Both the position numbers and the translations under genes were made by a program. Source: Calothrix sp. C42_A2020_038 (GTDB lineage: Bacteria; Cyanobacteriota; Cyanobacteriia; Cyanobacteriales; Nostocaceae). Taken from it: 64,000 bases of DNA. How positions within the stretch are numbered: position 1 is the stretch's first letter; each line of letters opens with the position of its first letter. The notes under the pieces are model-generated. The model was not told the DNA's origin, ran no database searches, and saw nothing but the letters and a program-made list of their open reading frames with translations. The DNA is taken from the NCBI GenBank assembly GCA_015272395.1, contig JACYLQ010000008.1, positions 62,001-126,000 of the forward strand, read 5' to 3'. Shown here in pieces: positions 11,763 to 62,877 of the stretch.

Positions 11763-12776
11763 TTATTGCCATTTGGAAGCAACTAACTCTGCTAAGTCAA
11801 GAACACGTTGGCTATAGCCCCACTCGTTATCGTACCAAGCCATGACTTTGACCATATCGCTACCCATAACCATTGTGAGACTTGAGTCAACGATTGAAGA
11901 TTCATCGGTACCTTGGTAGTCGGAAGATACTAAAGGTAATTCACTGTAAGCGAGAATACCTTTCAACTCGTTTTCAGAAGCTTGCTTAAGAGCTTCGTTA
12001 ACTTCTTCGGCAATAGTACGCTTTTCAACTTGAACTACAAAGTCAACCATTGAAACGTTTGGTGTTGGCACACGTAATGCTACACCATTTAATTTACCCT
12101 TCAGGTCTGGTAATACTAACGCTACTGCTTTTGCAGCGCCAGTCGAGGTTGGTACGATGTTCATAGCCGCAGCGCGCGCTCTTCTAACGTCGCGGTGCGA
12201 AGCATCTAATAACCTTTGGTCTCCAGTATAACTATGGGTAGTGGTCATGGTGCCTTTGATGATGTTGAACTTCTCATGCAACACCTTCGCAATTGGCGCC
12301 AGACAGTTGGTAGTGCAGCTAGCGTTACTAATAATGTGATGTTGGTTGTGGTCGTAATCATGATGATTAACACCCATTACAAACGTACCATCTTCATTTT
12401 TGCCAGGAGCAGTAATTAAAACCTTTTTTGCTCCAGCATTGACATGTTTCATCGCACCTTCTTTGGCGGTGAATACGCCAGTTGCTTCGATAATCAAGTC
12501 AATTCCCCATTCTTTCCAGGGCAAGTTTTCTGGGTTGCGGTCTGACACACATTTGACTGTCTTACCATTGATGATAATTGAGTTATCATCGGCGGAAATC
12601 TCAGCACCTTTCAACTTTCCAAGCATTGTGTCGTACTTGAGTAGGTGTGCGTTGGTTTTTGGGTCGGATGTGTCGTTAATCGCCACAAGGTCAATATTGC
12701 TATTTTCTCGACCCACCCAACAACGCGCAAAGTTACGCCCAATGCGACCGAAACCGTTGATTGCAACTCTAATCAC
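11763..12776 (-). CDS. gap2: Glyceraldehyde-3-phosphate dehydrogenase, photosynthetic Gap2 type
   Basis: Gap2 works in the Calvin cycle and gluconeogenesis with NADP(H) or NAD(H). The Rossmann start is [19 protein letters not shown]. The catalytic Cys154 sits in [32 protein letters not shown] is the phosphate-binding region, and the end is [20 protein letters not shown]. The open frame runs 18 codons further to an ATG at 12830. The family start, however, corresponds to a GTG at 12776 preceded by GAGGG about eight bases upstream, giving the typical 337 residues. Convergent with thiL across a ~78-bp spacer that holds repeat-like CTCCTAACTCCTAA. Confidence 0.95.
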
Positions 12777-13920
12777 AGCGTCTTGCCCTCTATATTTATG
12801 CCTAAAAATGCTACTTATGACCTCAATCATATCGCAAAGGGGAGAGTATTTATAACTATCAAGCGCTAAATCTGAAAAAAAACTAAATTTGTTGTTTTGA
12901 TGTCATGTGTTGGGTTACGCTGGACTATCCTTCGGGAAAGCTTAACCTACTTACTCACTAACACCCCAATATTAATGACATGAACTACTAGGTCTGGTGG
13001 AGAGTGAAGTTATTTGCGACTTGACAGCTTTCAAAATTTTTGTAATCGTCTATACTTGACGAAAATCTATCTAAAGGTATAAACATGAGGCTCAAGCACA
13101 TAGCAAATTAGATTCACTTATTTGTGTAGTTGTTGTCTTATTTGCTTGCGTATTGACTAGTTTCTAAGTTATATTCTCACCACTTGGAGTTTGAAATAAA
13201 TAAAAAGTGACTTTGAAAACTTATTCAAAGTTGCCAAAGTTGCCGAAAATTACTTCAGTTTATCCAAACTAAGGTTCTTGACGACCACAGAACATATAAT
13301 CCCCAAGCAGGAGGTGTAAATTTTTACAAAAACATAGAAATATAAGAAGCAAAAAATTATTTATGCTTATATACGAATGTAAGCAACAACGTATAGATAA
13401 TGCATTTTTACTAATCAGAAAGAGCATATATACATATGTAAAGCTGATCAAGAAATCTAAGTTATGGTCGTTCTAAAGGTTCTTCGGTTACGATTAATTG
13501 TCCATCCTAGAATTAGGAATTTTGGTGTAAGCTAACAATTCAGTATTTATGACTAAAATCTATCGATTAGCCTTTGAGGTGTGTACGAAAGCTAAGTACC
13601 CATTCAAAAGCACACATTGAACTACCATAGCAAATTATCAATGGCAAAATCATCTCAATGGAACGAAAATGCAATTACGCTGATATGTTTCCCGATAGTG
13701 TCGAAAATATCAGAATAAACATATTATTAATTCAGTTAGAGAAAAACACACTCTTGCAGGTACAATCATTCTCAACAACTTAGATGTTAAGGGAGATCGT
13801 ATTTCATGCACAAAGTTTTCAAAGTGGTACAGACATTATGTCGGTAACTTTGGAATACCTGTTATGATACCCGTGTTATTTGTAATTCTGGTGTGGTGTG
13901 GTGTTAGAGGAGTTCTATAA
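12777..13920. other. 1.1-kb intergenic region between gap2 and murC
   Basis: The left part should contain the gap2 promoter. A fragment of repeat family A lies at 12961-12992. The rest is AT-rich with no frame that has both a ribosome-binding site and recognisable protein features. GGAG at 13908-13911, nine bases before the murC ATG, is a good ribosome-binding site. A hidden small RNA cannot be excluded from sequence alone. Confidence 0.5.
12961..12992 (-). repeat. Repeat family A, partial copy
   Basis: On the minus strand it reads CCTAGTAGTTCATGTCATTA followed by ATATTGGGGTGT, matching the left end of copies at 895-1006 and 48674-48760. The right half of the element is absent. Confidence 0.65.
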
Positions 13921-15381
13921 ATGAAGAAAACAGTAGATTTTGGCGGTAGACCTTTTCATTTTATCGGAATTGGCGGGATCGGAATGTCTGCACTCGCTTA
14001 TGTGATTGCGAAACGTCAGTTACCTGTTTCAGGTTCGGACTTACGACCCAATCACATTACTCATAAATTGGAAACTATTGGTGCCCATATTTTTAGTAAG
14101 CAAGAGGCAAGCAATCTAGAGTTCTTCCAACTACAGAAAAATGAAAATTTAGAAGGTTCAAATAATCATGATTATTCAAATCAATCGAGCGCACAACTAC
14201 CGCAAGTAGTATGTTCTACAGCAATTAATACAAGTAACTTAGAGTATAGAGCTGCAATTGAGAATGGCTGCCCAATTTTTCATCGCTCAGATGTACTTGC
14301 TGCGTTAATTGCTGAGTATGAGAGTATTGCAGTTGCGGGAACTCACGGTAAAACTACAACAAGTAGCATGATTGGATACATGTTGCTTGAAGCAGGGCTA
14401 GATCCGACTATATTAGTCGGGGGTGAAGTCAAAGCTTGGGAAGGCAATGCTCGATTGGGAGAGAGTCCTTACTTAGTAGCAGAAGCTGATGAGTCTGATG
14501 GTTCGTTGGTAAAACATGCTCCATATATAGGTATTATTACTAATATAGAATTAGATCACCCTGACCACTACGATTCTTTAGAGCAAGTTATTGATATTTT
14601 CCAAACTTTTGCTCAAAACTGTAAGGTGTTAGTTGGCAGTATTGACTGTGAAACAGTGCGTGACCGTATTCAACCAAGCGTAACTTACAGTCTTTATCCT
14701 GATAAGGGGGCTGACTATTACGTAACAGACGTAGACTACCGTGCTGATGGTTCGAGAGCGTTGGTGTGGGAACGAGGCAAGGCTTTAGGTGTACTGAATT
14801 TGCGTCTATTATCTCGCCATAATCTAAGCAATGCCTTAGCTGCTGTAGCTGTGGGTCGAATCTTAGGTTTAGAATTTGGTGAAATTGCTAAAGGGCTAGC
14901 GACTTTTGAAGGTGCGCGGCGCCGATTTGAATTCCGAGGTGAAGTAGATGGAATTACTTTTATTGATGATTATGCTCATCACCCTAGCGAAATTCGGGCA
15001 ACTTTAGCAGCAGCACGCTTGCAAGCACGTCCTGGACAGAGAGTAGTGGCTATTTTCCAGCCGCATCGTTATAGTCGTACACTTGCCTTTTTAGATGAAT
15101 TCGCCCTTAGCTTTGCTCATGCTGACTTAACAGTAATTACAGATATATACAGTGCTGGAGAAGCTAATTTAGGGCAAATTAGCGGTGAAGATTTAGCTTC
15201 TGAAATTGGTAAATACCAAGAGAATGTTAAATATGAACCGACTTTATGTTCTGTATGCGAATATTTGCTCAAAACATTACGCCCTGGTGATTTAGCACTA
15301 TTTCTTGGAGCAGGAAACCTTAACCAAGTTATTCCAGAAATTATTGCTGCTATCCGCCAGCCAGCACAAGCAACATCATAA
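13921..15381 (+). CDS. murC: UDP-N-acetylmuramate--L-alanine ligase
   Basis: Cytoplasmic ATP-dependent ligase adding the first amino acid of the peptidoglycan stem. 486 residues. The N-terminal UDP-binding loop is FIGIGGIGMSALAYV. The Mur-ligase ATP loop is AGTHGKTTTSSM, followed by EADESDGSLV, ITNIELDHPDHY and the domain-3 block FIDDYAHHPSEIRATL. A low-complexity insert of about 25 residues (ENLEGSNNHDYSNQSS) after about residue 75 is longer than in many MurC proteins. A clear ribosome-binding site precedes the ATG. murB follows on the same strand, as usual in cyanobacteria. Confidence 0.97.
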   Translation: MKKTVDFGGRPFHFIGIGGIGMSALAYVIAKRQLPVSGSDLRPNHITHKLETIGAHIFSKQEASNLEFFQLQKNENLEGSNNHDYSNQSSAQLPQVVCSTAINTSNLEYRAAIENGCPIFHRSDVLAALIAEYESIAVAGTHGKTTTSSMIGYMLLEAGLDPTILVGGEVKAWEGNARLGESPYLVAEADESDGSLVKHAPYIGIITNIELDHPDHYDSLEQVIDIFQTFAQNCKVLVGSIDCETVRDRIQPSVTYSLYPDKGADYYVTDVDYRADGSRALVWERGKALGVLNLRLLSRHNLSNALAAVAVGRILGLEFGEIAKGLATFEGARRRFEFRGEVDGITFIDDYAHHPSEIRATLAAARLQARPGQRVVAIFQPHRYSRTLAFLDEFALSFAHADLTVITDIYSAGEANLGQISGEDLASEIGKYQENVKYEPTLCSVCEYLLKTLRPGDLALFLGAGNLNQVIPEIIAAIRQPAQATS

Positions 15382-15538
15382 GCTACTGGTTAGAGCCTGA
15401 CACAGCCAGTTTTAAGATTAGAAATTTTGTAGCACTGGCTTGTCATTTCTAACTGAAATAATGTTGTCAAAATCAGTTTCTTGTTACATCCGTATATTTA
15501 CGTTCCCCATCAGCTTAAACACATCTAAAAAGGTAAAT

Positions 15539-16531
15539 ATGACAATCTCTTCAGCGGATGCGTATGTCTGCAAAAATATAGAAATTTGTGATCGCGAAAA
15601 AAAAACAGTTGAGGTGGAAAGACAAGTGATTTATTTACCTGGAACTGATTGTGTAATCAGACCAGGAGTATCGTTAGCTGGATTTACTTCTTATCGCGTT
15701 GGTGGTCCAGCTGAATGGTATGTAGCCCCCCGTAATATTACTGCACTAGAAGCTAGTATAAAGTATGCTAAGTCACAAGGAATACAGATTACAGTTCTAG
15801 GTGCTGGTTCTAACTTATTAGTTAGCGATTGTGGTATTTCGGGTTTAGTAATTGGAACACGCCATTTACGTTATAGCAATTTAGACCCAGAAACGGGTTT
15901 GGTGACAGTAGCCGCAGGTGAATCGATTCCTAACTTAGCATGGGAAGCAGCAAAACTTGGCTTTGAAGGACTCGAATGGTCAGTTGGTATTCCTGGTACA
16001 GTTGGTGGTGCAGTTGTGATGAATGCAGGCGCCCACAATGGTTGTATCGCAGACATCTTGGTTAGCGCTGAGGTACTTCTATCTGACGGAACGCTCAAAA
16101 CCTTTACAGCCTCAGACTTAGGTTATGCCTACCGTACATCTAACCTTCAAGGCAGTAAACATATTGTTACCCAGGCAACCTTCCAACTGAAACCCGGCGC
16201 CGACCCAGCAGTTGTTTTAGCAACTACGAAACAACATAAAGAACATCGATTAACCACACAGCCTTATGATAAACCAAGTTGTGGTAGCGTTTTTCGCAAT
16301 CCTAAACCATATTCTGCTGGCTGGTTAATTGAGCAAGCTGGTCTAAAAGGTTACCAAATTGGTAAGGCTCAAGTCGCACCACGTCATGCTAACTTTATTG
16401 TCAACTGTGGTGGCGCCAGTGCTTGCGATATTTTTAACTTGATTCGTTACATCCAAAATAGTGTGCAAGAACATTGGTCAATTGCATTAGAACCAGAAGT
16501 AAAAATGCTTGGCCATTTTCAAATTGCCTAA
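15539..16531 (+). CDS. murB: UDP-N-acetylenolpyruvoylglucosamine reductase
   Basis: FAD enzyme that reduces the enolpyruvyl group to give UDP-N-acetylmuramate. The 330-residue protein shows [16 protein letters not shown] (N-terminal FAD domain), [40 protein letters not shown] with the catalytic Ser region, and [16 protein letters not shown], matching type IIa-like MurB. The frame is open back to a TTG at 15440, but the ATG at 15539, with AAGG seven to ten bases upstream, is the better start. It follows murC by about 160 bases and probably shares its transcript. Confidence 0.95.
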
Positions 16532-52039: not shown

Positions 52040-52798
52040 ATGGAATCTCTATCATTTATAACCGTTGATGAGCAATCAATTTCCATAGTACAAGCAGTGA
52101 AATACCTGCAAGCGTCAGGGAAATTGGGACAGTTCATAGGTGAAATTCTCCGTCAGTACGTAATTGAACAGGAAACCTCAAATCGTGAGGATATTATTAT
52201 CAGTCCGGCATTGACAGAACAAGCTATTATTGATTTTCGTCTCAAAAATCAGCTTACAGACCCACAGCGTTTTAACGACTGGTTGAAAAGTAACGGCACC
52301 AACTACGATACTTTTCACTCTTCGGTTGCATCTAGCTTTAAATTGGAAAAACTTAAAGCTGTGATTTCAGAACCTAAACTTCAAGAATACTTTATTGAAC
52401 GTAAGATTTTTCTCGATAGAGTAGTTTTATCCAGAATCATCGTTGATAACCGGGAGCTTGCAGAAGAATTACACGCGCAAATTGACGAAGGCGCCAGTTT
52501 TGAGCAAATTGCCCGCGAGTACTCACTCGCTGATGACAAAGTTGTTAACGGGATGATGGGACCAGTTAGCCGAGGTACTTTACCAGATATACTAAGAGCG
52601 GCAGTGGATGTGTCAAGTCAAGGTACGTTAATTGGACCGTTGGAATTGGAAGGGCGCTTTGGTTTGTTTCGCGTGGAACAATTCCTTACTGCGTCTTTAG
52701 ATGATACTCAACTAAAGCAGACACTACAAAACGAGTTGTTTGAGAAATGGCTAGCAGAGAAGATTCAAAAGCTTACAGTCAGACTGCAAGTGGGTTAA
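52040..52798 (+). CDS. Parvulin-type peptidyl-prolyl isomerase (SurA/PpiC-like)
   Basis: 252 residues without signal peptide. The N-terminal ~120 residues are helical and SurA-like (SKLEKLKAVISEPKLQEYFI region), and the parvulin domain covers about 130-220 (RIIVDNRELAEELHAQIDEG, FEQIAREYSLADD, GPVSRGTLPDILRAAV, IGPLELEGRFGLFRVEQF). Its 3' end overlaps the start of the ABC exporter gene by 52 bases, so the two are translationally coupled. Pairing of this cytoplasmic isomerase with a type I exporter suggests it keeps cargo unfolded or export-competent (inference). Confidence 0.88.
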   Translation: MESLSFITVDEQSISIVQAVKYLQASGKLGQFIGEILRQYVIEQETSNREDIIISPALTEQAIIDFRLKNQLTDPQRFNDWLKSNGTNYDTFHSSVASSFKLEKLKAVISEPKLQEYFIERKIFLDRVVLSRIIVDNRELAEELHAQIDEGASFEQIAREYSLADDKVVNGMMGPVSRGTLPDILRAAVDVSSQGTLIGPLELEGRFGLFRVEQFLTASLDDTQLKQTLQNELFEKWLAEKIQKLTVRLQVG

Positions 52799-55539
52799 CT
52801 GCCGTTGATAGAGACCTACACAATGGAGTGTTAGAGTCTTTACCTTGGGCAGAAGCTCCTTTTTGCTGGTTGACCCCAGAAGAAAAAAATATATTGAGAA
52901 GTAGTGCAAAAATATCTCACTACGGATTAGGTGAGAAAATTTGGTCAAGAACTAACTGTGGCTTAAACTATTTTATTGTCTTAGGTAAGGTCAGGCTACG
53001 GGAAGAAGAAACCAGTAAGCCAGTGGCAACTTTAGAAGTTGGTGACTGGTTTGGTGACTTACTTTTGGGTGCGGTTGACTGTAAAGCTGTAGCTGCTAGC
53101 AAAGAAGTAACAGTAGTTAGCTGGGATGTTAACGTCTGGCTTCATGTATCAAATCCTCAAGTTCAAGCATTTTGGGAAGGGCCACCACCTGAACCAACAT
53201 CTCAAAGCATTAACGGGAATGGTAATGTATCAAAACTTAATCAATTAGATATTCAGCCTCCGAATGGAAACAACACTTCAATACCGATACGGCTGGATGA
53301 GTATAATTCACAACAAGATCAAGCTAGTACACACCAAGAAAATCAATCGACAAGAACGCAGCAGTCGCAGTTTCAACGCGAACTACTAGCAACTGCTTCA
53401 TCTCAAGCATCTTCTGGCTATCCGTTCGTAGCAAGTCATAATACTGGAGCTGCATGTTTGACAATGGCTGCTATTCAGTTAAATAACCCTGTGCAGCTTG
53501 AATGGGTGCAGCGTCAACTTCGAGGACAGCGAGCCAAAAACCTGGTTGAAACTGCTGAAAAATTAGGGTTTATTCTACGACGGTTACAGCTAACATGGTC
53601 AGAACTACGACAGTTGTCTTTTCCTGTGTTAATGCGCTGGAATGCAGGTCAGGGACAAGAACCAACCTGGGTTATTGCTTATGGGATGAAGGGAGACCGT
53701 CTTATTGTTGCCAACCCTTTAAACCAAGAAGGTAAATGCGAAAGTTTACCTCAGCAAATGGTTATTGAAGCTTGGGATGGCAAACTTTGGCAAGCTGAAG
53801 TTGTTCAAAAACAAGAAAAATTTAACTTAAGCTGGTTTCTTCCAGCTGTGATGCGATACCGAGGTTTATTAACCGAGGTGCTATTAGCTTCATTCACCCT
53901 ACAGTTACTGGGACTAACAACACCACTAATTACCCAAGTTGTTATAGATAAGGTGATGGTACAGGAGAGTTTACCGACTCTCGATGTTATGGCCATTGCT
54001 TTGCTTTCGGTCGCCTTGTTTGAAGCAATACTCGGTACACTACGATTATTTATTTTCACGCATACGGCTCGGCGCCTTGATTTGAGTTTATCAGCGCAGT
54101 TATTTCGCCACTTAATGCGCTTGCCTCTGGCGTATTTTGAATCTCGTCGGGTTGGAGATACTGTCGCCCGTGTTCAGGAACTCGAACAAATTCGTCAGTT
54201 TCTAACAGGAACAGCACTTACTGTTGTACTAGATAGTATTTTTGCTGTTGTCTATTTAGGATTGATGTTCTATTACAGCATTCCGTTGACTTTTGCTGGG
54301 TTAGCGGTGTTACCATTGTTTGCAACACTGACACTTGTTGCTACACCGATTCTCCGTAACTGGCTCAACGAAACCTTTAACCGTAGTGCAGACAGTCAAT
54401 CTTTCTTGGTAGAAACAGTTACAGGTATTCATTCAGTCAAAGCACATGCTGCTGAACCTGTAGCGCGCGACCGTTGGGAAGGTTTATTTGCCCGGTTTAT
54501 TCGGACTGGGTTTAAAGCTTCGACAACTCAAAACATCAGTAGCAACATAGGTGACTTTTTAACTCATTTGTCTAGCTTGTTAATTCTTTGGTTTGGCGCC
54601 AAGTTAGTTATCGAGCAAAAACTGACTATTGGTCAACTTGTCGCGTTTCAAATGCTTTCTGGACGTGTAACCGGACCACTGTTACGCTTAGTACAGCTTT
54701 GGCAAAACTTGCAGCAAGTACTATTATCAGTAGACCGCATCGGCGATATCCTCAATGTGGCGCCGGAAGCTGAACCAGGTACTGGTCTAGTATTACCACC
54801 TCTCAAAGGCGAAGTATCCTTCGAGCAAGTATTTTTCCGTTACAAAGAAGGCAACGAACCAGTGCTACGGGGAATTTCATTCGATGTGCGACCAGGAGAA
54901 TTTGTTGGTATAGTTGGGCGTAGTGGTTCTGGAAAGAGTACGCTTTCTAAATTGTTACAACGATTATATACAATCGAATCGGGTCGTATTTTAATCGATG
55001 GATTTGATATTAAAAGTGTGGACTTAGCATCATTGCGTCAGCAAATCGCTGTTGTTCTCCAAGAAGACTTTCTATTTAACGCTTCGATCTTGGAAAACAT
55101 CACTCTGGGAAACCCTGATATCAGCGCTGAACAAGTGGTGGAAGCTGCACGTCTCGCTGTTGCTCACGATTTTATCAGCCAAATGCCTCACGGTTACGAA
55201 ACAAATGTTGGCGAACGCGGAACTGCATTATCTGGAGGTCAGCGTCAGCGTATCGCTCTGGCAAGACTATTTTTATCACAGGCGCCAATATTAATTCTTG
55301 ATGAAGCAACTAGCGCACTCGATGCTGAAACTGAACAACAAGTGCTGCAAAACCTCCAAAAAGTCTCACAAAACCGTACCGTGTTTATTATCGCTCACCG
55401 CTTTGCTCCATTGAAACGCGCGAACCAAATATTAGTAATGGAGCGCGGAGTTATTGTTGAACGTGGCACACATGAAGGTTTAATACGCGATAAAGGACTA
55501 TATTGGTCGCTATATCAACGTCAGCAAGCTAATGTTTAA
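52747..55539 (+). CDS. Type I secretion ABC exporter with cNMP-like and peptidase-dead C39 domains
   Basis: 930 residues. About 20-150: a cyclic-nucleotide-binding-like beta roll (YGLGEKIWSR, VGDWFGDLLLG). About 210-345: a C39-like domain. In it the usual catalytic Cys position is Thr233 (NTGAACLTMA), the His position is Thr307 (PTWVIAYG) and the Asp is replaced by Asn (VANPLNQ), so it should not cleave leaders and resembles the HlyB C39-like domain. About 370-670: transmembrane domain. The ATPase has Walker A GRSGSGKST (724-732), LSGGQRQR (828-835) and ILILDEATSALD. The start ATG lies inside the isomerase gene. The order of domains is like HetC-type and Nostoc exporters. I infer it exports the linked proteases. 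Confidence 0.93.
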   Translation: MASREDSKAYSQTASGLTAVDRDLHNGVLESLPWAEAPFCWLTPEEKNILRSSAKISHYGLGEKIWSRTNCGLNYFIVLGKVRLREEETSKPVATLEVGDWFGDLLLGAVDCKAVAASKEVTVVSWDVNVWLHVSNPQVQAFWEGPPPEPTSQSINGNGNVSKLNQLDIQPPNGNNTSIPIRLDEYNSQQDQASTHQENQSTRTQQSQFQRELLATASSQASSGYPFVASHNTGAACLTMAAIQLNNPVQLEWVQRQLRGQRAKNLVETAEKLGFILRRLQLTWSELRQLSFPVLMRWNAGQGQEPTWVIAYGMKGDRLIVANPLNQEGKCESLPQQMVIEAWDGKLWQAEVVQKQEKFNLSWFLPAVMRYRGLLTEVLLASFTLQLLGLTTPLITQVVIDKVMVQESLPTLDVMAIALLSVALFEAILGTLRLFIFTHTARRLDLSLSAQLFRHLMRLPLAYFESRRVGDTVARVQELEQIRQFLTGTALTVVLDSIFAVVYLGLMFYYSIPLTFAGLAVLPLFATLTLVATPILRNWLNETFNRSADSQSFLVETVTGIHSVKAHAAEPVARDRWEGLFARFIRTGFKASTTQNISSNIGDFLTHLSSLLILWFGAKLVIEQKLTIGQLVAFQMLSGRVTGPLLRLVQLWQNLQQVLLSVDRIGDILNVAPEAEPGTGLVLPPLKGEVSFEQVFFRYKEGNEPVLRGISFDVRPGEFVGIVGRSGSGKSTLSKLLQRLYTIESGRILIDGFDIKSVDLASLRQQIAVVLQEDFLFNASILENITLGNPDISAEQVVEAARLAVAHDFISQMPHGYETNVGERGTALSGGQRQRIALARLFLSQAPILILDEATSALDAETEQQVLQNLQKVSQNRTVFIIAHRFAPLKRANQILVMERGVIVERGTHEGLIRDKGLYWSLYQRQQANV

Positions 55540-55780: not shown

Positions 55781-58700
55781 TTATTTTGAAAGAATTAAAT
55801 TTAGCAAATTCAATTCGTGCGAAGATAATAAATACTTATCTGTAAAAATCTTTTGTCGAGTTTCTTTCAAACTATAGCTTCTAAACACAACGAAAGGAAA
55901 GTCTTGATAATCTAAGCCAATAGGTAAAATATTGCCCACTGAATAAGATGACCGAATATATCTAGCTAAAATTTCCCGGAAGCTTTTATCTTTGGGTTCT
56001 TCTGGTTGTTCAAAGTACGCACGCATTGCATCACCACAGATAAATGCAAATAGTGGGAATGCATAATATTGGTCGGGTTGTGATGCACGTAGTTCTAAGT
56101 GTTGTGTTTTTTCTGCTCCTGTACGTAGTTTTTTGATGAGTTCGATTGCATCTTTTATTGCCGCGCGTAAGTTTTCTGGGTATGATTTACTATGACTGAT
56201 TGTTTGCATGTTTCGCCAAAGTTCATCGTTGGCAATGTTGTGGATATCCGCTAATTTAATTAAATAGTTTTCTTCCAATGTTTGATTTTCCAATGCTACA
56301 ATCACCATACCACCACTGATATAAGCTGATTCAATGATGCTATTATCAAGCAGTTTATCGAGCGTATTATATGTTTGCAAAAATTTACTGTTGAAGTCTT
56401 CTCGTAATCTGAGATAATTGGATTCAGTGGCGCCTTGAATGACAAAATCAGCAGAACTTAATAATCTTTCCAGGCTAGTATATACATTTTCAATTAATTT
56501 GTTACCTGGATTACGATGGCTTTCTTGCTTTAACTGCAGTATCAAATTTGCTAATTGCATCGAAAATGTTTCACCAGCCCCAAAAACTGATTTACCACCA
56601 ATAGGTATAATAATAAAGTTATCGCGACCGATACGACCAGAACCACATATTCTAGTCATAATTGCAGCTTTCAAAAGTAATAAAATATTCAAAATGTCAA
56701 GCACACTTTCTTGAAGTGTGATTTGCCAGTCTGGTTCGTAATAATAATGCGAATTAACACCTAAATAAAACGTTAATTCTTTATCTTGATTGTCAATTAC
56801 TTCGTTACCACGTCCTCTATATATAACCTGGATGATTTCCATCAAGTTGTTTTCAATTTCGTATTTCGGAATTTCTACTAGGATATGCTTAACTTTTGGG
56901 AACGATAAACCACGACTTCCTGAAGAAGTCATAAATATAACTTTAACTTCATTTTGATATTGATGGATTTTTTGTTTCTCTTCTTCAGATATACTCGCGT
57001 GTATCTCTAAGTAATCAGTATACAAATCAAAATCTTGGTGCTTTTGAATCTTAGCGATTAATTCTGATAATTTTCTTTTGTGCTGGATGTAAACAATAAA
57101 TTGCTCAATATCAGGATTTCTCAACAGCGTTTGAATATCTTTTAAAATTTCAATTTGTAACTGATTTTCTGCATCATTCCTGCTTTCAATATTTATTTGC
57201 TCGTTCAACTTCTCTGATTGTATCAACAGTTTGTATGTAATCACTAAAGAGCTTGCAGGATAAGAGTTTGTATTAATTATCGTTGCAGGCAAGTTTTTAA
57301 AAACAAAGTGTTCTAATGATATCGGTTGATTGCTCTCTAACTGATTTGAACACCGAAAATATATCTTATCAGGTTCAGGCGCCGAATTTGACAAATGTTG
57401 CGTAATCACATTTTTGTCAACAATCGAAGCATCGGCAACTATAATTTTAGTATTAAAGCCAAATTCGGGATTCGTTAATTTATATCTACTAATTATCTCA
57501 TTTATTCGATTCAAAAATTCTGCTCCACCATCATCACCTGTAATTTCATCAATCATTACAAAGAAATGTTTAATACGGCTTGATATTTGCTGCATTCGGT
57601 CAGAAAAAATAGTACCTTCACGCTCGTTATAAGCATGTCTAAAAATTTTTTCAAAGTGTTTTAAAGTATCTTCACTTCCTGAAGTTTTTTTTAAAGCTTG
57701 AATTGAAGTTGTTGCAACAATTTGGTTGGACACATTATGTTCAATAACAGTTGAGATAGCTTCGCAAACACAATTTAAAACACCTTTGCTTTTTCTGCCG
57801 ACATCACGGATGGTATCATCGGTTTGGTTTTTGAGTCGATTAGTACGTTTGGATTGTAAATCGACTTTACTATCAATAAAATCAACACCTTGTTCAGAAA
57901 AATTATCCTGGCGCCGATTAGTAGTATACTGAACTGTACATCTTCCGTAATTATCGGCGATGAGGTTACTGTGGGAATTGATTGTAAACAATCTATCGTC
58001 ATATAGTTGTAATGTTTTATCCTTAAACTTTTCGATAATATCGAGGTTGACTTGTTTTCTGGGACTAACATAAAAAAACAGAAAACCCTCATCCAGGTGA
58101 TTTTTGAGAAAATCGACAATAGCTGTAGTTTTGCCAATACCAGGATTACCCGTTAAGAAGATAAAAGTATCCTGTGACAGTAAAGCTTTTTTGATTAGTG
58201 CTGCATGAGCATCTCGCAAGTTCAGCGTTCCAGTTAACCCTAATTGTCGCATCAAATCATCTGGAACACGCGCGACGGAGTTAAAAAAATTTGCAATTTT
58301 CTCAGTGTAGGATATGTAATTTAATTGACGTGGTGATATTGATAATATTGCGTCAACAAATTCTTTTCCTCGTTCAAAACTAACATAAGCGCTGCGCTTG
58401 ATTTTATTTAACACTCTTAAACGTGCAGATGAAATATCTTCAGTTTGATGATGCTTGTAGATTTCGTAACATGTCTTTAAAATATCAAGATTCTGAGGAG
58501 TAACGGATATCGCGTTAATATCCCTATCACTGTAACCAACTGCATTAAAAACCATTGGTACATTAGCTATAATCTTAGCTTCTTGCAGAAATTGGTAAAA
58601 GCTGTAAATATAACCACCAGCTTGAATTAATTTTGCGGTTTCTTTGTCTCGATATTTGAAAGCGTTAAAATAATGAATCAAATCGGGTGATATCTCAAAG

Positions 58701-59383
58701 TTCACAGACTCAGTATCAAGACGCAAACGTGAGAATACGCTTTTAGAGCGCAAATAGTTGATATCCTTTATGAGTAAGTTCCGGATAATCTCCACATAGT
58801 CAATATTCTGGATATCGTTTACAGAACGTATTCCAAATACCGTCAAATCTAAACACAGAATACGGTAGGATTTACCATATTTTAGTAATACTAAAGTATC
58901 AGCGTTAAAAAACTCACCCTTTTTCTGATATTTATCTATATATATAGGTAAGACACTGGGACTTAAAGAAAGCTGTGATAAAACACGACCATACCACTGC
59001 TGGTCATCTTCAGTCTGGTAAGTACCGAGACTGTTCTCACCACTAAACCGACAATGGTAATAAACGACTTCCACACGTTTGAGACGATATGGTTGAGTCC
59101 ATCCAACTGCACTGAGGTACTCACGAAAAAAATTCAAACCGCTTAAAAACCCTTTTTGCAGAAAAAAAGTACTCCAAGTTTCAACAATATCCCTATCTAA
59201 TGTACTGACTACTTCTGCAGCTATTCTCTGACGTATCTTGACAAAGTTGAGATTTTCTAGTTCCTCACGGTATAAACTTCCAAAGTAATGTTTAATTTTA
59301 TACTGATTTATCGCTGATAAAGTACCGATATTAAATCCTACCTCAAATAGGCGCCCTAAGTATTCGGCTATTTTTGATGACAT
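55781..59383 (-). CDS. Large SF2-like helicase with uncharacterised N-terminal domain (1200 aa)
   Basis: The Walker A motif is GNPGIGKTT (412-420, Lys418), motif II is DEIT (612-615), motif V is like SSGSRGLSFP (820-829) and motif VI is QVIYRGRG (852-859, Arg856 and Arg858). Together these indicate an SF2-type helicase/translocase. The N-terminal ~400 residues show no family I know. Asp162 and Asp179 in ADTLVLLKYG...RILCLDLTV are spaced as in a PD-(D/E)xK nuclease, but the Lys is Thr181, so this is only a weak possibility. The C-terminal ~300 residues are helical and unknown. It starts 21 bases after the stop of the 998-aa gene, so the two form an operon. Four GGCGCC sites show it has the local base style. 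Confidence 0.8.
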   Translation of the reverse strand: MSSKIAEYLGRLFEVGFNIGTLSAINQYKIKHYFGSLYREELENLNFVKIRQRIAAEVVSTLDRDIVETWSTFFLQKGFLSGLNFFREYLSAVGWTQPYRLKRVEVVYYHCRFSGENSLGTYQTEDDQQWYGRVLSQLSLSPSVLPIYIDKYQKKGEFFNADTLVLLKYGKSYRILCLDLTVFGIRSVNDIQNIDYVEIIRNLLIKDINYLRSKSVFSRLRLDTESVNFEISPDLIHYFNAFKYRDKETAKLIQAGGYIYSFYQFLQEAKIIANVPMVFNAVGYSDRDINAISVTPQNLDILKTCYEIYKHHQTEDISSARLRVLNKIKRSAYVSFERGKEFVDAILSISPRQLNYISYTEKIANFFNSVARVPDDLMRQLGLTGTLNLRDAHAALIKKALLSQDTFIFLTGNPGIGKTTAIVDFLKNHLDEGFLFFYVSPRKQVNLDIIEKFKDKTLQLYDDRLFTINSHSNLIADNYGRCTVQYTTNRRQDNFSEQGVDFIDSKVDLQSKRTNRLKNQTDDTIRDVGRKSKGVLNCVCEAISTVIEHNVSNQIVATTSIQALKKTSGSEDTLKHFEKIFRHAYNEREGTIFSDRMQQISSRIKHFFVMIDEITGDDGGAEFLNRINEIISRYKLTNPEFGFNTKIIVADASIVDKNVITQHLSNSAPEPDKIYFRCSNQLESNQPISLEHFVFKNLPATIINTNSYPASSLVITYKLLIQSEKLNEQINIESRNDAENQLQIEILKDIQTLLRNPDIEQFIVYIQHKRKLSELIAKIQKHQDFDLYTDYLEIHASISEEEKQKIHQYQNEVKVIFMTSSGSRGLSFPKVKHILVEIPKYEIENNLMEIIQVIYRGRGNEVIDNQDKELTFYLGVNSHYYYEPDWQITLQESVLDILNILLLLKAAIMTRICGSGRIGRDNFIIIPIGGKSVFGAGETFSMQLANLILQLKQESHRNPGNKLIENVYTSLERLLSSADFVIQGATESNYLRLREDFNSKFLQTYNTLDKLLDNSIIESAYISGGMVIVALENQTLEENYLIKLADIHNIANDELWRNMQTISHSKSYPENLRAAIKDAIELIKKLRTGAEKTQHLELRASQPDQYYAFPLFAFICGDAMRAYFEQPEEPKDKSFREILARYIRSSYSVGNILPIGLDYQDFPFVVFRSYSLKETRQKIFTDKYLLSSHELNLLNLILSK

Positions 59384-59404
59384 AATAATCCTAAGCTAAG
59401 ATAA

Positions 59405-62401
59405 CTATTGTTTTAGATTCAATACTTTTCTCACCAATGTTAAAAACGCAAGAGAGTTAAACTCTGTTTTTCCCTGCATATGAGGAAACGTTGCCAACTT
59501 TCCAACAGAGTTATCACCAATTAAATTATCGTATGGGTCAAGCTTGAGGTGAATTTCCTTCGCTTTTTGATAGCGTGAAAAGTGGAATAAAGTTAAATAC
59601 TGTAAAATATCGTTTTTCAAAGACCCTTCGTACATCAAACCCATGCGAATATCTTCATCGTCGAGTATCCCTTTATAGATATTCAACAGTGTTGCGTAAG
59701 AGATTACACCATTGTAATATTTATCGGCGCCGTTCAAATTGATGCCGTTGAATAGGTTAAAGAAAACTACTGACTGTTTACTGCTGTCTTTGACTAAATT
59801 AGCTAGTTCTACAGTGTCTTGTACATATAGAGAACTAGCTTTAATTTTTTCTGCTTTGATAGCATAGTATTTATCAAAGAACATTGGATAAATCTTAATA
59901 TCGTCATGGTCAGCTTTCAAAGCATCGATAACATTCCTCGACATGAAGAACAACCCATCGTCTTCTTCAGTTTGCGTCATATGCAAAGTACTTGTATAGG
60001 GTGCTTTAGCGATATAAGCAAAATGACGATATCCCTTTTCATAGAGCTTGGCAACGTTTTCAACAATAACAGCAGGGTGGGTAAATAGCTGTTGGTTGTG
60101 ATAGTTATCTGAGAAAGTGGTAAGTAACTGGACTCGTACTGAGTTATTTGTGAGTCGTAACCCAATAATTTCTCCCATCAAGTTCGATATTTTATCTTTC
60201 GCACCCCATTTCCTATCGCTTTCACGACTCGAAACTACGATAATTGCTAGTTTCTCTAATTGTGGTGTGTAGTTGGTATTGGTAAAAGTAAATTTTTTGG
60301 GAAGTATAGAATACAGCGAACTCATCACATTCGGTATTTTATACTGACATGAATGCTTGTAATCACGAATATCTATTCCCTGCGAGTTGGAACGATGGGT
60401 TTCGTTGAGTAGATGCGAGAGTACGTTTGACAAGGAAACGAGGAATTTTTCTGTTGGAGCGTTATCTTGCTTATTATTTAGATGTAGTCGCAGTATGGGA
60501 ACGAACAACATTTTTTGTTGCTGTAGTAATAAATGCAAACAAATGTACGCTAGTAAACTGTATGTAAATTGGTAAATAAATGTTCGGATTGAATCATAAT
60601 TGTTCGTTTCCTCGCTGTAGGGGAATACAATTAATTTACGCTTTGAAAATTCTTGCTCGTACAAACGCTTACAGCTAGAATTATTGATAGGCGCCATTAA
60701 AATTGGTAAAGCATTGATACCTCGCAGGTCATACTCCATCGTAAAAGTCTGCTTATCATCGGTGGCAAAAAAATGAATATCGCTGAAAGTTATCTTTCCT
60801 GGTAATGTGCATAACGCATTTACATTAGCTTGCGCTTCACCAAGTGCAATGTATTTGAGGTTTTCTTTAGGGTTTGCTCTTAAAACAGGTTTGAATAAAG
60901 TATTGTTTTTCAGACACGACTCGATATTATCTTCAACAATACCTTGCTTAATAGATAGATGTAAAGGGAATTCGCGCGTGCTGAAGTGAGTTTTGTTTTT
61001 GAGTTGGTTATGTAATAATACTTTGAGTGAGTTAATTTTGAGTTGTACTTTCAAGTCTTGGAAATACTTATATATATCTCGGAACAACTTTTGTTTTATA
61101 GGTTCATCACTAGCTTGAAGTTTGGTAAGTACGTGTTTATCAAAAGCTGCTACTGGGTCATATTCAAGTTCTTGGTGAAAATTATAATCTGGTTTGGTTG
61201 GGTTTTGACGTGAAGCGAAAACAAAGTAATATAAAAACGCGATTTTTAGAACTTTGCGAACAAAAGTTTCTTTTGTTGCTTCATTCGATAACCCTGCTTG
61301 ATGTTCCATACTATCAGGGTTGAGTAAGTTTAAATGATATTCAAATACATTTTTGCCACCGAGTGTTTGTACTTTGCCATCAAATTTTAACTTGATACCA
61401 AAAACAAAATCGATTTCTCCTTTCTCTTCGTCTTTATTTTCTCCTAAATATCCTTCAATGATGGGGATGATTGGTAGTATCTCATAAACCTCCGCGCGTG
61501 AAAACATGTCTCTGTAATTAATTGAGATACCAGCATAACTAACCAAATAATCTCCATCTGGTTTTGCACTGTTACCGATATATGCTTCAACTAACTTAAG
61601 TCTTCTGATTAAATCTTGTAAATAAACCGTAGCTTTTGCATTTTGAGTAGCTACACTGAGATTTTCCAACAGAAACTCTAAATAATAAATTTGCGCTTGT
61701 TTTTTCAGTTTTCCAAGGGTTTCTGTATCAACAATTTTTTGTAAACGATAGAAGTCAGAATTTACGTCTTTCTCCAAATCTTCTAAGATATATTTTAAAT
61801 CTTCACGTTCTGCCATAGTTGTATTTTGTTGATTTAAGTCAATATAGTGATTAATTCCTTGCTGTAAATGTCGATGAAAATCACAAGTCTTTTGTACAGA
61901 TATCGTCAACTTATGAAACTTGAGTAATAATTCCGGTTTCTGAGTAAAATTATTTGTGTTATTAAATGTCAAACGCTGTTTCTGAAGTCCTTGATATGAT
62001 GAAAAATTGTAAGCAAAATTCAAACTGGGTTGACCAGTCAAAGTTTGCAAAGAAGTAGTCATTGTAGCGACAAACTCCTCAACATCAGTGCTATCCAATA
62101 AATTAGATAGCTGTTGCCCAATAGAATAGTTTATTTTACTAATTAGTTCTTGAAAGCGCGCATCTGAACCTGGGCTAATATTAACAGTAGCAGAACGCGC
62201 GCTTCGTCCCAAGGCGCCTAAAGGGTTTTGCACGTGTTTTTCTGCAATACAGGTAGCAATTTTATCAATATTAATTTTTAAATGTAAGCCTTGCAAAGAT
62301 AGCTCAAATAATTGCTGATGATGAAGTGTATGTAAAATCTGAGTTAATATATCAGTATAATCTAAGTATACTAAATTAGTATCGGCTGAAATATTATTCA
62401 A
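59405..62401 (-). CDS. Large protein of unknown family, partner of the helicase (998 aa)
   Basis: Not recognised. No signal peptide or membrane helix. The first ~450 residues are largely helical with coiled-coil character. Later parts look alpha/beta, with hydrophobic strands such as LEKLAIIVVSSRESDR (Arg726-Glu727), RHFAYIAKAP and SVVFFNLFNGINL. The terminus is YLTLFHFSRYQKAKEI then LATFPHMQGK. Alternating strand and helix and the ending recall RNase H/PIWI-type folds, but I see no certain DEDx set, so this is speculation. It is first in a two-gene operon with the helicase and has three GGCGCC sites. Confidence 0.7.
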   Translation of the reverse strand: MNNISADTNLVYLDYTDILTQILHTLHHQQLFELSLQGLHLKINIDKIATCIAEKHVQNPLGALGRSARSATVNISPGSDARFQELISKINYSIGQQLSNLLDSTDVEEFVATMTTSLQTLTGQPSLNFAYNFSSYQGLQKQRLTFNNTNNFTQKPELLLKFHKLTISVQKTCDFHRHLQQGINHYIDLNQQNTTMAEREDLKYILEDLEKDVNSDFYRLQKIVDTETLGKLKKQAQIYYLEFLLENLSVATQNAKATVYLQDLIRRLKLVEAYIGNSAKPDGDYLVSYAGISINYRDMFSRAEVYEILPIIPIIEGYLGENKDEEKGEIDFVFGIKLKFDGKVQTLGGKNVFEYHLNLLNPDSMEHQAGLSNEATKETFVRKVLKIAFLYYFVFASRQNPTKPDYNFHQELEYDPVAAFDKHVLTKLQASDEPIKQKLFRDIYKYFQDLKVQLKINSLKVLLHNQLKNKTHFSTREFPLHLSIKQGIVEDNIESCLKNNTLFKPVLRANPKENLKYIALGEAQANVNALCTLPGKITFSDIHFFATDDKQTFTMEYDLRGINALPILMAPINNSSCKRLYEQEFSKRKLIVFPYSEETNNYDSIRTFIYQFTYSLLAYICLHLLLQQQKMLFVPILRLHLNNKQDNAPTEKFLVSLSNVLSHLLNETHRSNSQGIDIRDYKHSCQYKIPNVMSSLYSILPKKFTFTNTNYTPQLEKLAIIVVSSRESDRKWGAKDKISNLMGEIIGLRLTNNSVRVQLLTTFSDNYHNQQLFTHPAVIVENVAKLYEKGYRHFAYIAKAPYTSTLHMTQTEEDDGLFFMSRNVIDALKADHDDIKIYPMFFDKYYAIKAEKIKASSLYVQDTVELANLVKDSSKQSVVFFNLFNGINLNGADKYYNGVISYATLLNIYKGILDDEDIRMGLMYEGSLKNDILQYLTLFHFSRYQKAKEIHLKLDPYDNLIGDNSVGKLATFPHMQGKTEFNSLAFLTLVRKVLNLKQ

Positions 62402-62877
62402 CAGTATGACTCCCTAGTAGATATTAAACGTGAATTCTAATAAAAATTAGGAGTCTAGTTTGAACTGATAGAAGGGAAACGTATAACTATAACTGAACGT
62501 GCGTTCCTTCAAACTATCAAAACAAAGTGGACATCAATATGACTAGTTCACCGTATAAATGTTGATTATTATTGAGTCACATTATCTCAAGTCAATGCGA
62601 TACATACTATTTATAGTTAATTACAGTTAATGCGGCAAGGTAGTAATATAGTAATAATCTTTGTATATATCAGATGACCACCGCTATTGTACTTAAAATA
62701 ATTAGTAAAGAAAGTATTATTATTTTACGTACAATTACTAAAAATATGACTTAAGTTTTGGTATTATAAATAATATTTTGTGGGTCAGGCATCGCAAGCC
62801 TTGATTGATAGAACAGGCAAGGATGCCTGTTCCACAACACCTCAAAATTAATGGGGTACTACGTTCAGCATGAGAAT
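62402..62877. other. Intergenic region between the two-gene operon and purQ
   Basis: About 475 bases. It contains the likely promoter of the 998-aa gene on the minus strand and the family A repeat copy 3 at 62753-62853. The remainder is AT-rich with no recognised gene. Confidence 0.5.
62753..62853 (-). repeat. Dispersed repeat family A, copy 3
   Basis: The plus strand reads AGTTTTGGTATTATAAATAA, a hairpin-forming GGTCAGGCATCGCAAGCCT and GAACAGGCAAGGATGCCTG, then TTCCACAACACCTCAAAATT. It is the reverse complement of 895-1006 and lies 25 bases from the purQ stop. Confidence 0.78.

Follow-up and report, generated by a model that had tools for sequence, protein, structure and literature searches.

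A cyanobacterial Argonaute-like protein encoded with an SF2 helicase: likely a new variant of Argonaute–helicase defence

Introduction

What two large neighbouring genes, one encoding a helicase and the other a protein that matches no family in the usual libraries, do for the cyanobacterium carrying them is the question raised by one stretch of the genome of Calothrix sp. C42_A2020_038 (here called the window, the whole 64,000 nucleotides that were analysed). The initial annotation described two adjacent same-strand genes for proteins of 998 and 1200 aa, 21 bases apart, and both ORFs are confirmed. The first gene of the pair, PAR, runs over positions 59405..62401 of the minus strand from a TTG start and encodes the 998 aa protein, predicted to be Argonaute-like; the second, HEL, runs over 55781..59383 of the same strand from an ATG start and encodes a 1200 aa SF2 helicase, and the ORF list places the two 21 bases apart. 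PAR–HEL is likely a new variant of Argonaute–helicase defence, in which the unit and the Argonaute-type fold are well supported and the function is what we infer.

The PAR–HEL locus

The TTG codon of PAR is preceded, 8 bases to its 5' side, by GGGAG (62410..62414, minus strand), likely its ribosome-binding site, and motif and start codon are both retained at equal spacing in genomes G001 and G002. Directly upstream in the window and on the same strand stands purQ, itself preceded by an ORF that by eye looks like purS, so that the initial description of the pair as isolated from housekeeping genes does not hold. At the other end, in convergent orientation to PAR–HEL, lies a gene for an ABC transporter of type I secretion type; window positions 52040-55539 contain this gene and one for a PpiC-type protein, which matches a peptide-maturation family below threshold, perhaps an export operon. 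The source genome (6.53 Mb, 50 contigs) contains a single PAR match and a single HEL match, and the closest named HEL relatives among the best 80 of 218 from a contig scan belong to Calothrix and Dulcicalothrix. Ka/Ks values against four congeners, computed with a Nei-Gojobori-type script of our own, are 0.10-0.13 for PAR and HEL and 0.09-0.11 for the adjoining PurQ. This is therefore no chance pair of ORFs, and both genes are under purifying selection.

PAR is predicted to adopt an Argonaute-like fold

Searches of Pfam, PADLOC and NCBIfam with PAR gave no match, and neither did PDB sequences; PHROGs returned one weak match to a function-unknown family (E 0.018), and library matches of PAR homologues were scattered and all below cut-offs. 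The AlphaFold2 model of PAR was built from 64 sequences (mean pLDDT 85.7, pTM 0.81). Among the best 50 of 294 rows of a Foldseek comparison with the PDB, rows 1-33 are Argonaute entries of bacterial, human and plant origin (row 24 being a complex entry that contains AGO2), with E from 8.4e-6 to 1.0e-3 and probability 0.98-1.00; 32 of them have E <= 0.001 and the 33rd stands at 1.0e-3. The row that follows is a hexokinase (E 0.053, probability 0.10), and the same 50 rows include weak RNase H1 and endonuclease V matches. TM-scores to the Argonautes, normalised by PAR length, are low (0.17-0.25), and the superposition therefore covers just part of the PAR chain. At the level of fold the model fits the Argonaute/PIWI superfamily better than other folds, and an Argonaute-like fold for PAR is very probable from this predicted structure.

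Three regions can be delineated, all on the minus strand. The N-terminal half (residues 1-555, 60737..62401) consists of helices and long strands in the model. It is followed by a MID-like region (residues 556-706, 60284..60736), placed by eye from DSSP and alignments, in which G675 is found in 106/106 and Q674 in 104/106 rows, counts that, like those over the 108 HEL rows below, include repeated records and refer to rows, not species; inspection of the alignment by eye did not recognise the usual guide-5'-end Y..K residues in this region. Residues 717-998 (59408..60253) form a PIWI-like region of RNase H fold, as suggested by Foldseek and residue counts. Within it, two strands may have counterparts in Ago: KLAIIVVSSRESD would match the one bearing the first catalytic Asp, YIAKAP the one ending in RDG, a correspondence drawn by eye using Ago motifs and an alignment. 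On this mapping the DEDX aspartates would fall at position 723, which is V in 86, Y in 14 and I in 6 of the 106 rows, and at position 799, which is K in 59, Q in 31, H in 13, A in 2 and R in 1, with Asp in 0/106. With V723 and K799 apparently in place of the acids, PAR has probably lost nuclease activity, and we consider it quite likely that the protein is catalytically dead.

The Pfam Piwi model PF02171 matched neither PAR nor the 8 homologues scanned; it matches in 25/292 cyanobacterial genomes, the source genome being without a match. Mutual exclusion between PAR–HEL and classical Argonautes was considered and dropped, as 4/42 genomes with the pair also match PF02171, which is about chance. 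Alignment of PAR with Argonaute profiles by hhalign reached 0.07-1.0%, giving no sequence link. This test has little power, because the relation of pPIWI-RE to Ago described in PMC3702460 fails as well with the same sets (0.2-1.1%). In the PDB, a profile of the C-terminal part of PAR met a single hydrolase (E 0.058), which we regard as a chance match.

HEL combines an SF2 core with a candidate nuclease region

The initial annotation had called HEL an SF2-like helicase and named three of its motifs, and both points are borne out. Walker A (GNPGIGKT, residues 412-419 with K418; 58127..58150), motif II (DEIT, 612-615; 57539..57550) and motif VI (QVIYRGRG, 852-859; 56807..56830), all on the minus strand and conserved, lie where they had been placed, and Pfam Helicase_C matches residues 748-856 (E 7.3e-8). 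The top Foldseek rows for the AlphaFold2 model (pLDDT 82.8, pTM 0.80) are UvrB, BLM, HrpA and others. By its Walker A, motifs II and VI, Helicase_C match and helicase fold, HEL is an SF2 helicase.

The N-terminal part, residues 1-380 (58244..59383, minus strand), is a possible PD-(D/E)XK-like nuclease region, proposed from residue counts and the order of helices and strands. Seven positions (E14, D162, D/E179, K247, K251, Q254 and Y258) are invariant in 108/108 rows, proteobacterial ones included, and DSSP of the model reads as a helix, three strands, a second helix and a last strand, which suits the alpha-beta-beta-beta-alpha-beta core of PD-(D/E)XK nucleases. The residue set resembles theirs, and Q254 and Y258 form a Q-x3-Y like that of RecB/Cas4-type enzymes. 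Where the (D/E)xK motif usually has its Lys, 95/108 rows have Ser/Thr and 13/108 a gap; comparison with Cas4 profiles gave no sequence link, and the N-terminal profile met only chance matches to TDP-43 in the PDB. With profile searches negative and the residue pattern suggestive, we lean towards a PD-(D/E)XK-like nuclease.

PAR and HEL form one unit

In a survey of 292 cyanobacterial genomes, with at most two candidates scored per genome, HEL was matched in 46 and PAR in 43; both were matched in 42, HEL alone in 4 and PAR alone in 1. The five single matches are slight, comprising about 120 C-terminal HEL residues in G007, the P-loop only in G113, G129 and G245 (E ~2e-4 to 5e-4), and a 60-residue PAR fragment with a stop in G172. 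At least 2 of the 42 two-gene genomes (G019 and G067) hold remnants only. The pair-less genome G007 encodes a free-standing 134-aa protein resembling the HEL C-terminus (36% identity over 55 residues; L040, 3338-3742). In a set of 41 related genomes, HEL occurs in 21, PAR in 18 and both in 17.

The scan of genome contigs returned 218 HEL relatives, of which the best 80, all with cyanobacterial titles, were analysed and the other 138 set aside. Among these best 80 of 218, PAR lies upstream of HEL on the same strand at 72/80 loci, the distance being <=300 bases in 58/72 and the genes overlapping in 25. At the other eight no PAR is seen: HEL is truncated by the stretch boundary in five, begins 179 bases inside that boundary in one, and is interior in L080 and L124, L124 being apparently the same record as G030, which has PAR on another contig. 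Exceptions to the layout among the 41 related genomes are G002 and G024, where 9-11 kb separate PAR from HEL, and G026, where HEL is the first gene. The 9 kb insertion that splits the genes in G002 (L043) contains two brief remnants of the N-terminal HEL region; in L187 (G215) a 1054-aa gene and smaller genes stand between PAR and HEL (12679-15843); and tandem PAR-HEL-PAR arrangements occur in L079, L082 and L122, L079 having a further HEL start.

The two proteins also diverge together. The correlation between their pairwise distances is 0.985 for 83 pairs and 0.94 for the 63 canonical ones, for which the maximum of 1000 permutations is 0.13, and of the well-supported splits, 63 in the HEL tree and 56 in the PAR tree, 37 are common to both. 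Inspection by eye of the 22 largest neighbour clusters around these loci (again the best 80 of 218) found no third gene that stands out as an effector. PAR and HEL almost certainly form one two-gene unit, and it is inherited and exchanged as one. Whether the pair stays together had been left as a matter to check, and its homologues are neither scattered nor always separate, nor did they fall into a known housekeeping family.

Two alleles and decay beside purQ

At the purQ locus the unit exists in two forms, one in G001, G003 and the window, the other in G004 and G006. The G004/G006 allele is about 70% identical to that of G001/G003, with Ks 1.4-1.9, and at the flanks the Fur-like, PurS and PurQ genes, some of them named by eye, are only Ks 0.08-0.31 apart between the allele groups; the FAD-type gene on the far side gives Ks 0.09 between G001 and G004. 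DNA identity between these two genomes is 93.6% to just beyond purQ, 72% over both genes, and 96% from 0.5 kb after HEL. Within groups, the PAR alleles of G004 and G006 agree (Ks 0.16), and G001 and G003 show Ks 0.46-0.49 for the pair and lower values, 0.03-0.23, at the flanks; the window is more distant from the other congeners at the flanks (PurQ Ks 0.52-0.64). Decay is seen as well: G005 retains PAR pieces only, and in G006 HEL is down to 86 codons and PAR contains a stop. Exchange of just these two genes, with decay in relatives, would make a pattern typical of immune loci; slow sorting of old alleles may also have produced the allele pattern.

Plasmids, proteobacteria and the chromosomal site

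The unit is also carried by plasmids. PAR and HEL lie side by side on 6 cyanobacterial plasmids, 6/6 of them typed as conjugative, and HEL alone matches five more records: a Stanieria fragment, with a transposase gene near, and four proteobacterial plasmids, from Acinetobacter (two), Cupriavidus and Acetobacter. In 4/4 of the latter, the PAR profile picks out the gene that precedes the HEL homologue (E 3.5e-25 to 1.2e-106, small local set), so that these plasmids carry distant PAR–HEL pairs. In Acetobacter the HEL homologue reads as two ORFs, one of the Acinetobacter loci has an HNH gene next to the pair, and a match to DrmD of DISARM lies three genes beyond HEL on Trichormus variabilis plasmid C. 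A subfamily of longer proteins (L178-L185 and L192; HEL 1273-1338 aa, PAR 1055-1070 aa) forms a group of its own (support 0.997 and 1.0) and shares a branch with the pairs from proteobacteria (support 1.0).

A viral origin was considered and rejected: no relatives turned up in viral contigs, BFVD gave no match at E <= 0.001, and phage records searched with HEL contained no relatives.

Many chromosomal copies occupy a settled place. PurQ is kept in the stretch at at least 21/80 loci (best 80 of 218), and this PurQ-side position is a stable, old chromosomal housekeeping site, at odds with the variable or defence-rich surroundings that the initial annotation had anticipated. It counts, together with the low Ka/Ks, against a defence reading in that both also fit another role, such as housekeeping or regulation in filamentous cyanobacteria, for example DNA-RNA hybrid processing or gene control. 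The failure to find viral or phage copies (the phage records by HEL query) would suit such a role too, which is nevertheless unlikely in view of the patchy spread (42/292 genomes), the remnants inside one genus, allele divergence confined to the two genes, and carriage by conjugative plasmids and proteobacteria. The conjugative type of all six cyanobacterial carrier plasmids would instead suit a tool of mobile elements, serving in plasmid-plasmid competition and retained on chromosomes after capture; the old position beside PurQ speaks against this, and we hold it to be quite unlikely.

Proposed function

The reading we favour, with moderate confidence, is an Argonaute–helicase(–nuclease) two-component system against foreign DNA with a catalytically dead PAR, and that PAR–HEL serves defence in some form is probable. 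PAR would probably recognise the nucleic acid of an invader, possibly by means of a guide, and would then recruit HEL, the ATP-driven SF2 helicase that would unwind the target or move along it; the target would probably be cut by the PD-(D/E)XK-like domain at the HEL N-terminus. Use of a guide is evenly poised, and plasmids as the main target are a tentative proposal, a shade below that. The defence or nucleic-acid role suggested at the outset fits the Argonaute fold, carriage on plasmids that are conjugative, the single DISARM-type neighbour and, at one locus, alleles that were exchanged or decayed, the role itself, whether anti-plasmid or anti-phage, being what we infer. To our knowledge, no activity is known for any member of the PAR–HEL family.

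If the proposal is true, about 1/7 of sampled cyanobacterial genomes (42/292, at least 2 with remnants only) carry traces of an unannotated Argonaute-type system, with possible consequences for how filamentous cyanobacteria take up plasmids and are transformed and for our view of helicase recruitment by inactive Argonautes. The two alleles at one locus would offer a natural experiment in which targets can be compared.

Comparison with known systems

A description of the PAR–HEL pair was not found among the open-licence papers listed. In DdmDE the helicase gene comes first, whereas PAR precedes HEL, and in HEL, as a further difference, the candidate nuclease is N-terminal. Searches of PDB sequences with PAR and HEL returned no match named DdmD or DdmE, in a PDB copy that may not hold those entries, and the PADLOC library used has no family named DdmE. 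The likeness to this plasmid defence of Vibrio cholerae lies in the pairing of a guide-using Argonaute-type sensor with a plasmid-destroying helicase-nuclease (PMC12904381, where one sentence swaps the names DdmD and DdmE). Both DdmDE and ApsAB combine an Argonaute-like protein with a helicase-nuclease and clear plasmids, as described in PMC11096173 and PMC12904381.

ApsAB, the antiplasmid system of E. coli ST38, shares with the present pair a helicase-nuclease and an Argonaute-like protein. The ApsB motif is printed as Y[X]3K...QG...K (PMC11096173), and the QG of this MID-like motif has a conserved counterpart in Q674-G675 of PAR, in whose alignment Y-x3-K was not recognised by eye before QG. 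In other respects the systems differ. The helicase gene comes first in ApsAB and HEL is second at 72/80 loci (best 80 of 218); ApsA has a C-terminal nuclease motif at 1420-1435, whereas the only nuclease-like set found in HEL is N-terminal; about 290 residues separate DELH from SAT in ApsA and about 40 separate DEIT 612 from DAS 651, our equivalent of SAT, in HEL; and ApsB is reported to be without typical PIWI and PAZ domains, whereas the PAR model matches Argonaute entries (ApsAB features from PMC11096173). ApsAB-like systems are present in some cyanobacteria according to the same source, and an overlap with PAR–HEL is possible, yet disfavoured because gene order, nuclease position and motif spacing differ. 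PAR–HEL as a diverged member of the DdmDE/ApsAB family, which the like components, these cyanobacterial systems and the shared QG would allow, is improbable given the opposite gene order, the nuclease position, the DEIT-DAS spacing, the Argonaute match of PAR and the PDB searches without a DdmD or DdmE match.

The pPIWI-RE systems likewise join a PIWI-type protein to an SF2 helicase in a single operon, and sizes are similar (cyanobacterial triads ~980-1050 aa and, where complete, 1070-1210 aa). Their definition (PMC3702460) is a triad in which a REase gene is followed by those for a DinG helicase and the PIWI protein; neither the helicase of DinG type, nor a separate gene for a restriction-fold nuclease, nor a PF13032 match, as described there, was found for PAR–HEL. 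PF13032 (RNaseH_pPIWI_RE) matches 6/194 cyanobacterial genomes, and neither PAR, the 8 homologues nor the source genome; G030 carries PAR–HEL and pPIWI-RE on different contigs. When five PF13032 loci (one, L151, cut by a contig end) were compared by HMM and hhalign, nothing beyond chance linked triad proteins to PAR or HEL profiles among the matches listed (best E ~0.1, to other genes), and HEL met the triad helicases at 6% by hhalign, on the P-loop alone. Membership was rejected because PF13032 was not matched, gene order and third gene differ, and no relation beyond the P-loop was found, hhalign being weak here; a two-gene form of pPIWI-RE is thus very unlikely.

Long-B and other inactive prokaryotic Argonautes have a MID-PIWI fold with catalytic residues replaced (PMC6299218), as predicted for PAR, which differs in its lack of a PF02171 match and of a recognised YK guide motif and in its dedicated helicase partner. 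PAR–HEL probably acts like DdmDE or ApsAB and is probably a separate family, distinct from pPIWI-RE. We tentatively propose, at somewhat less than even confidence, a third, as yet unnamed lineage of guide-dependent Argonaute–helicase–nuclease immunity apart from DdmDE/ApsAB and pPIWI-RE, with a nuclease fused N-terminally to the helicase and exchangeable recognition alleles at a fixed chromosomal site, which would span cyanobacteria and proteobacteria and whose PAR component has no model in Pfam, NCBIfam or PADLOC.
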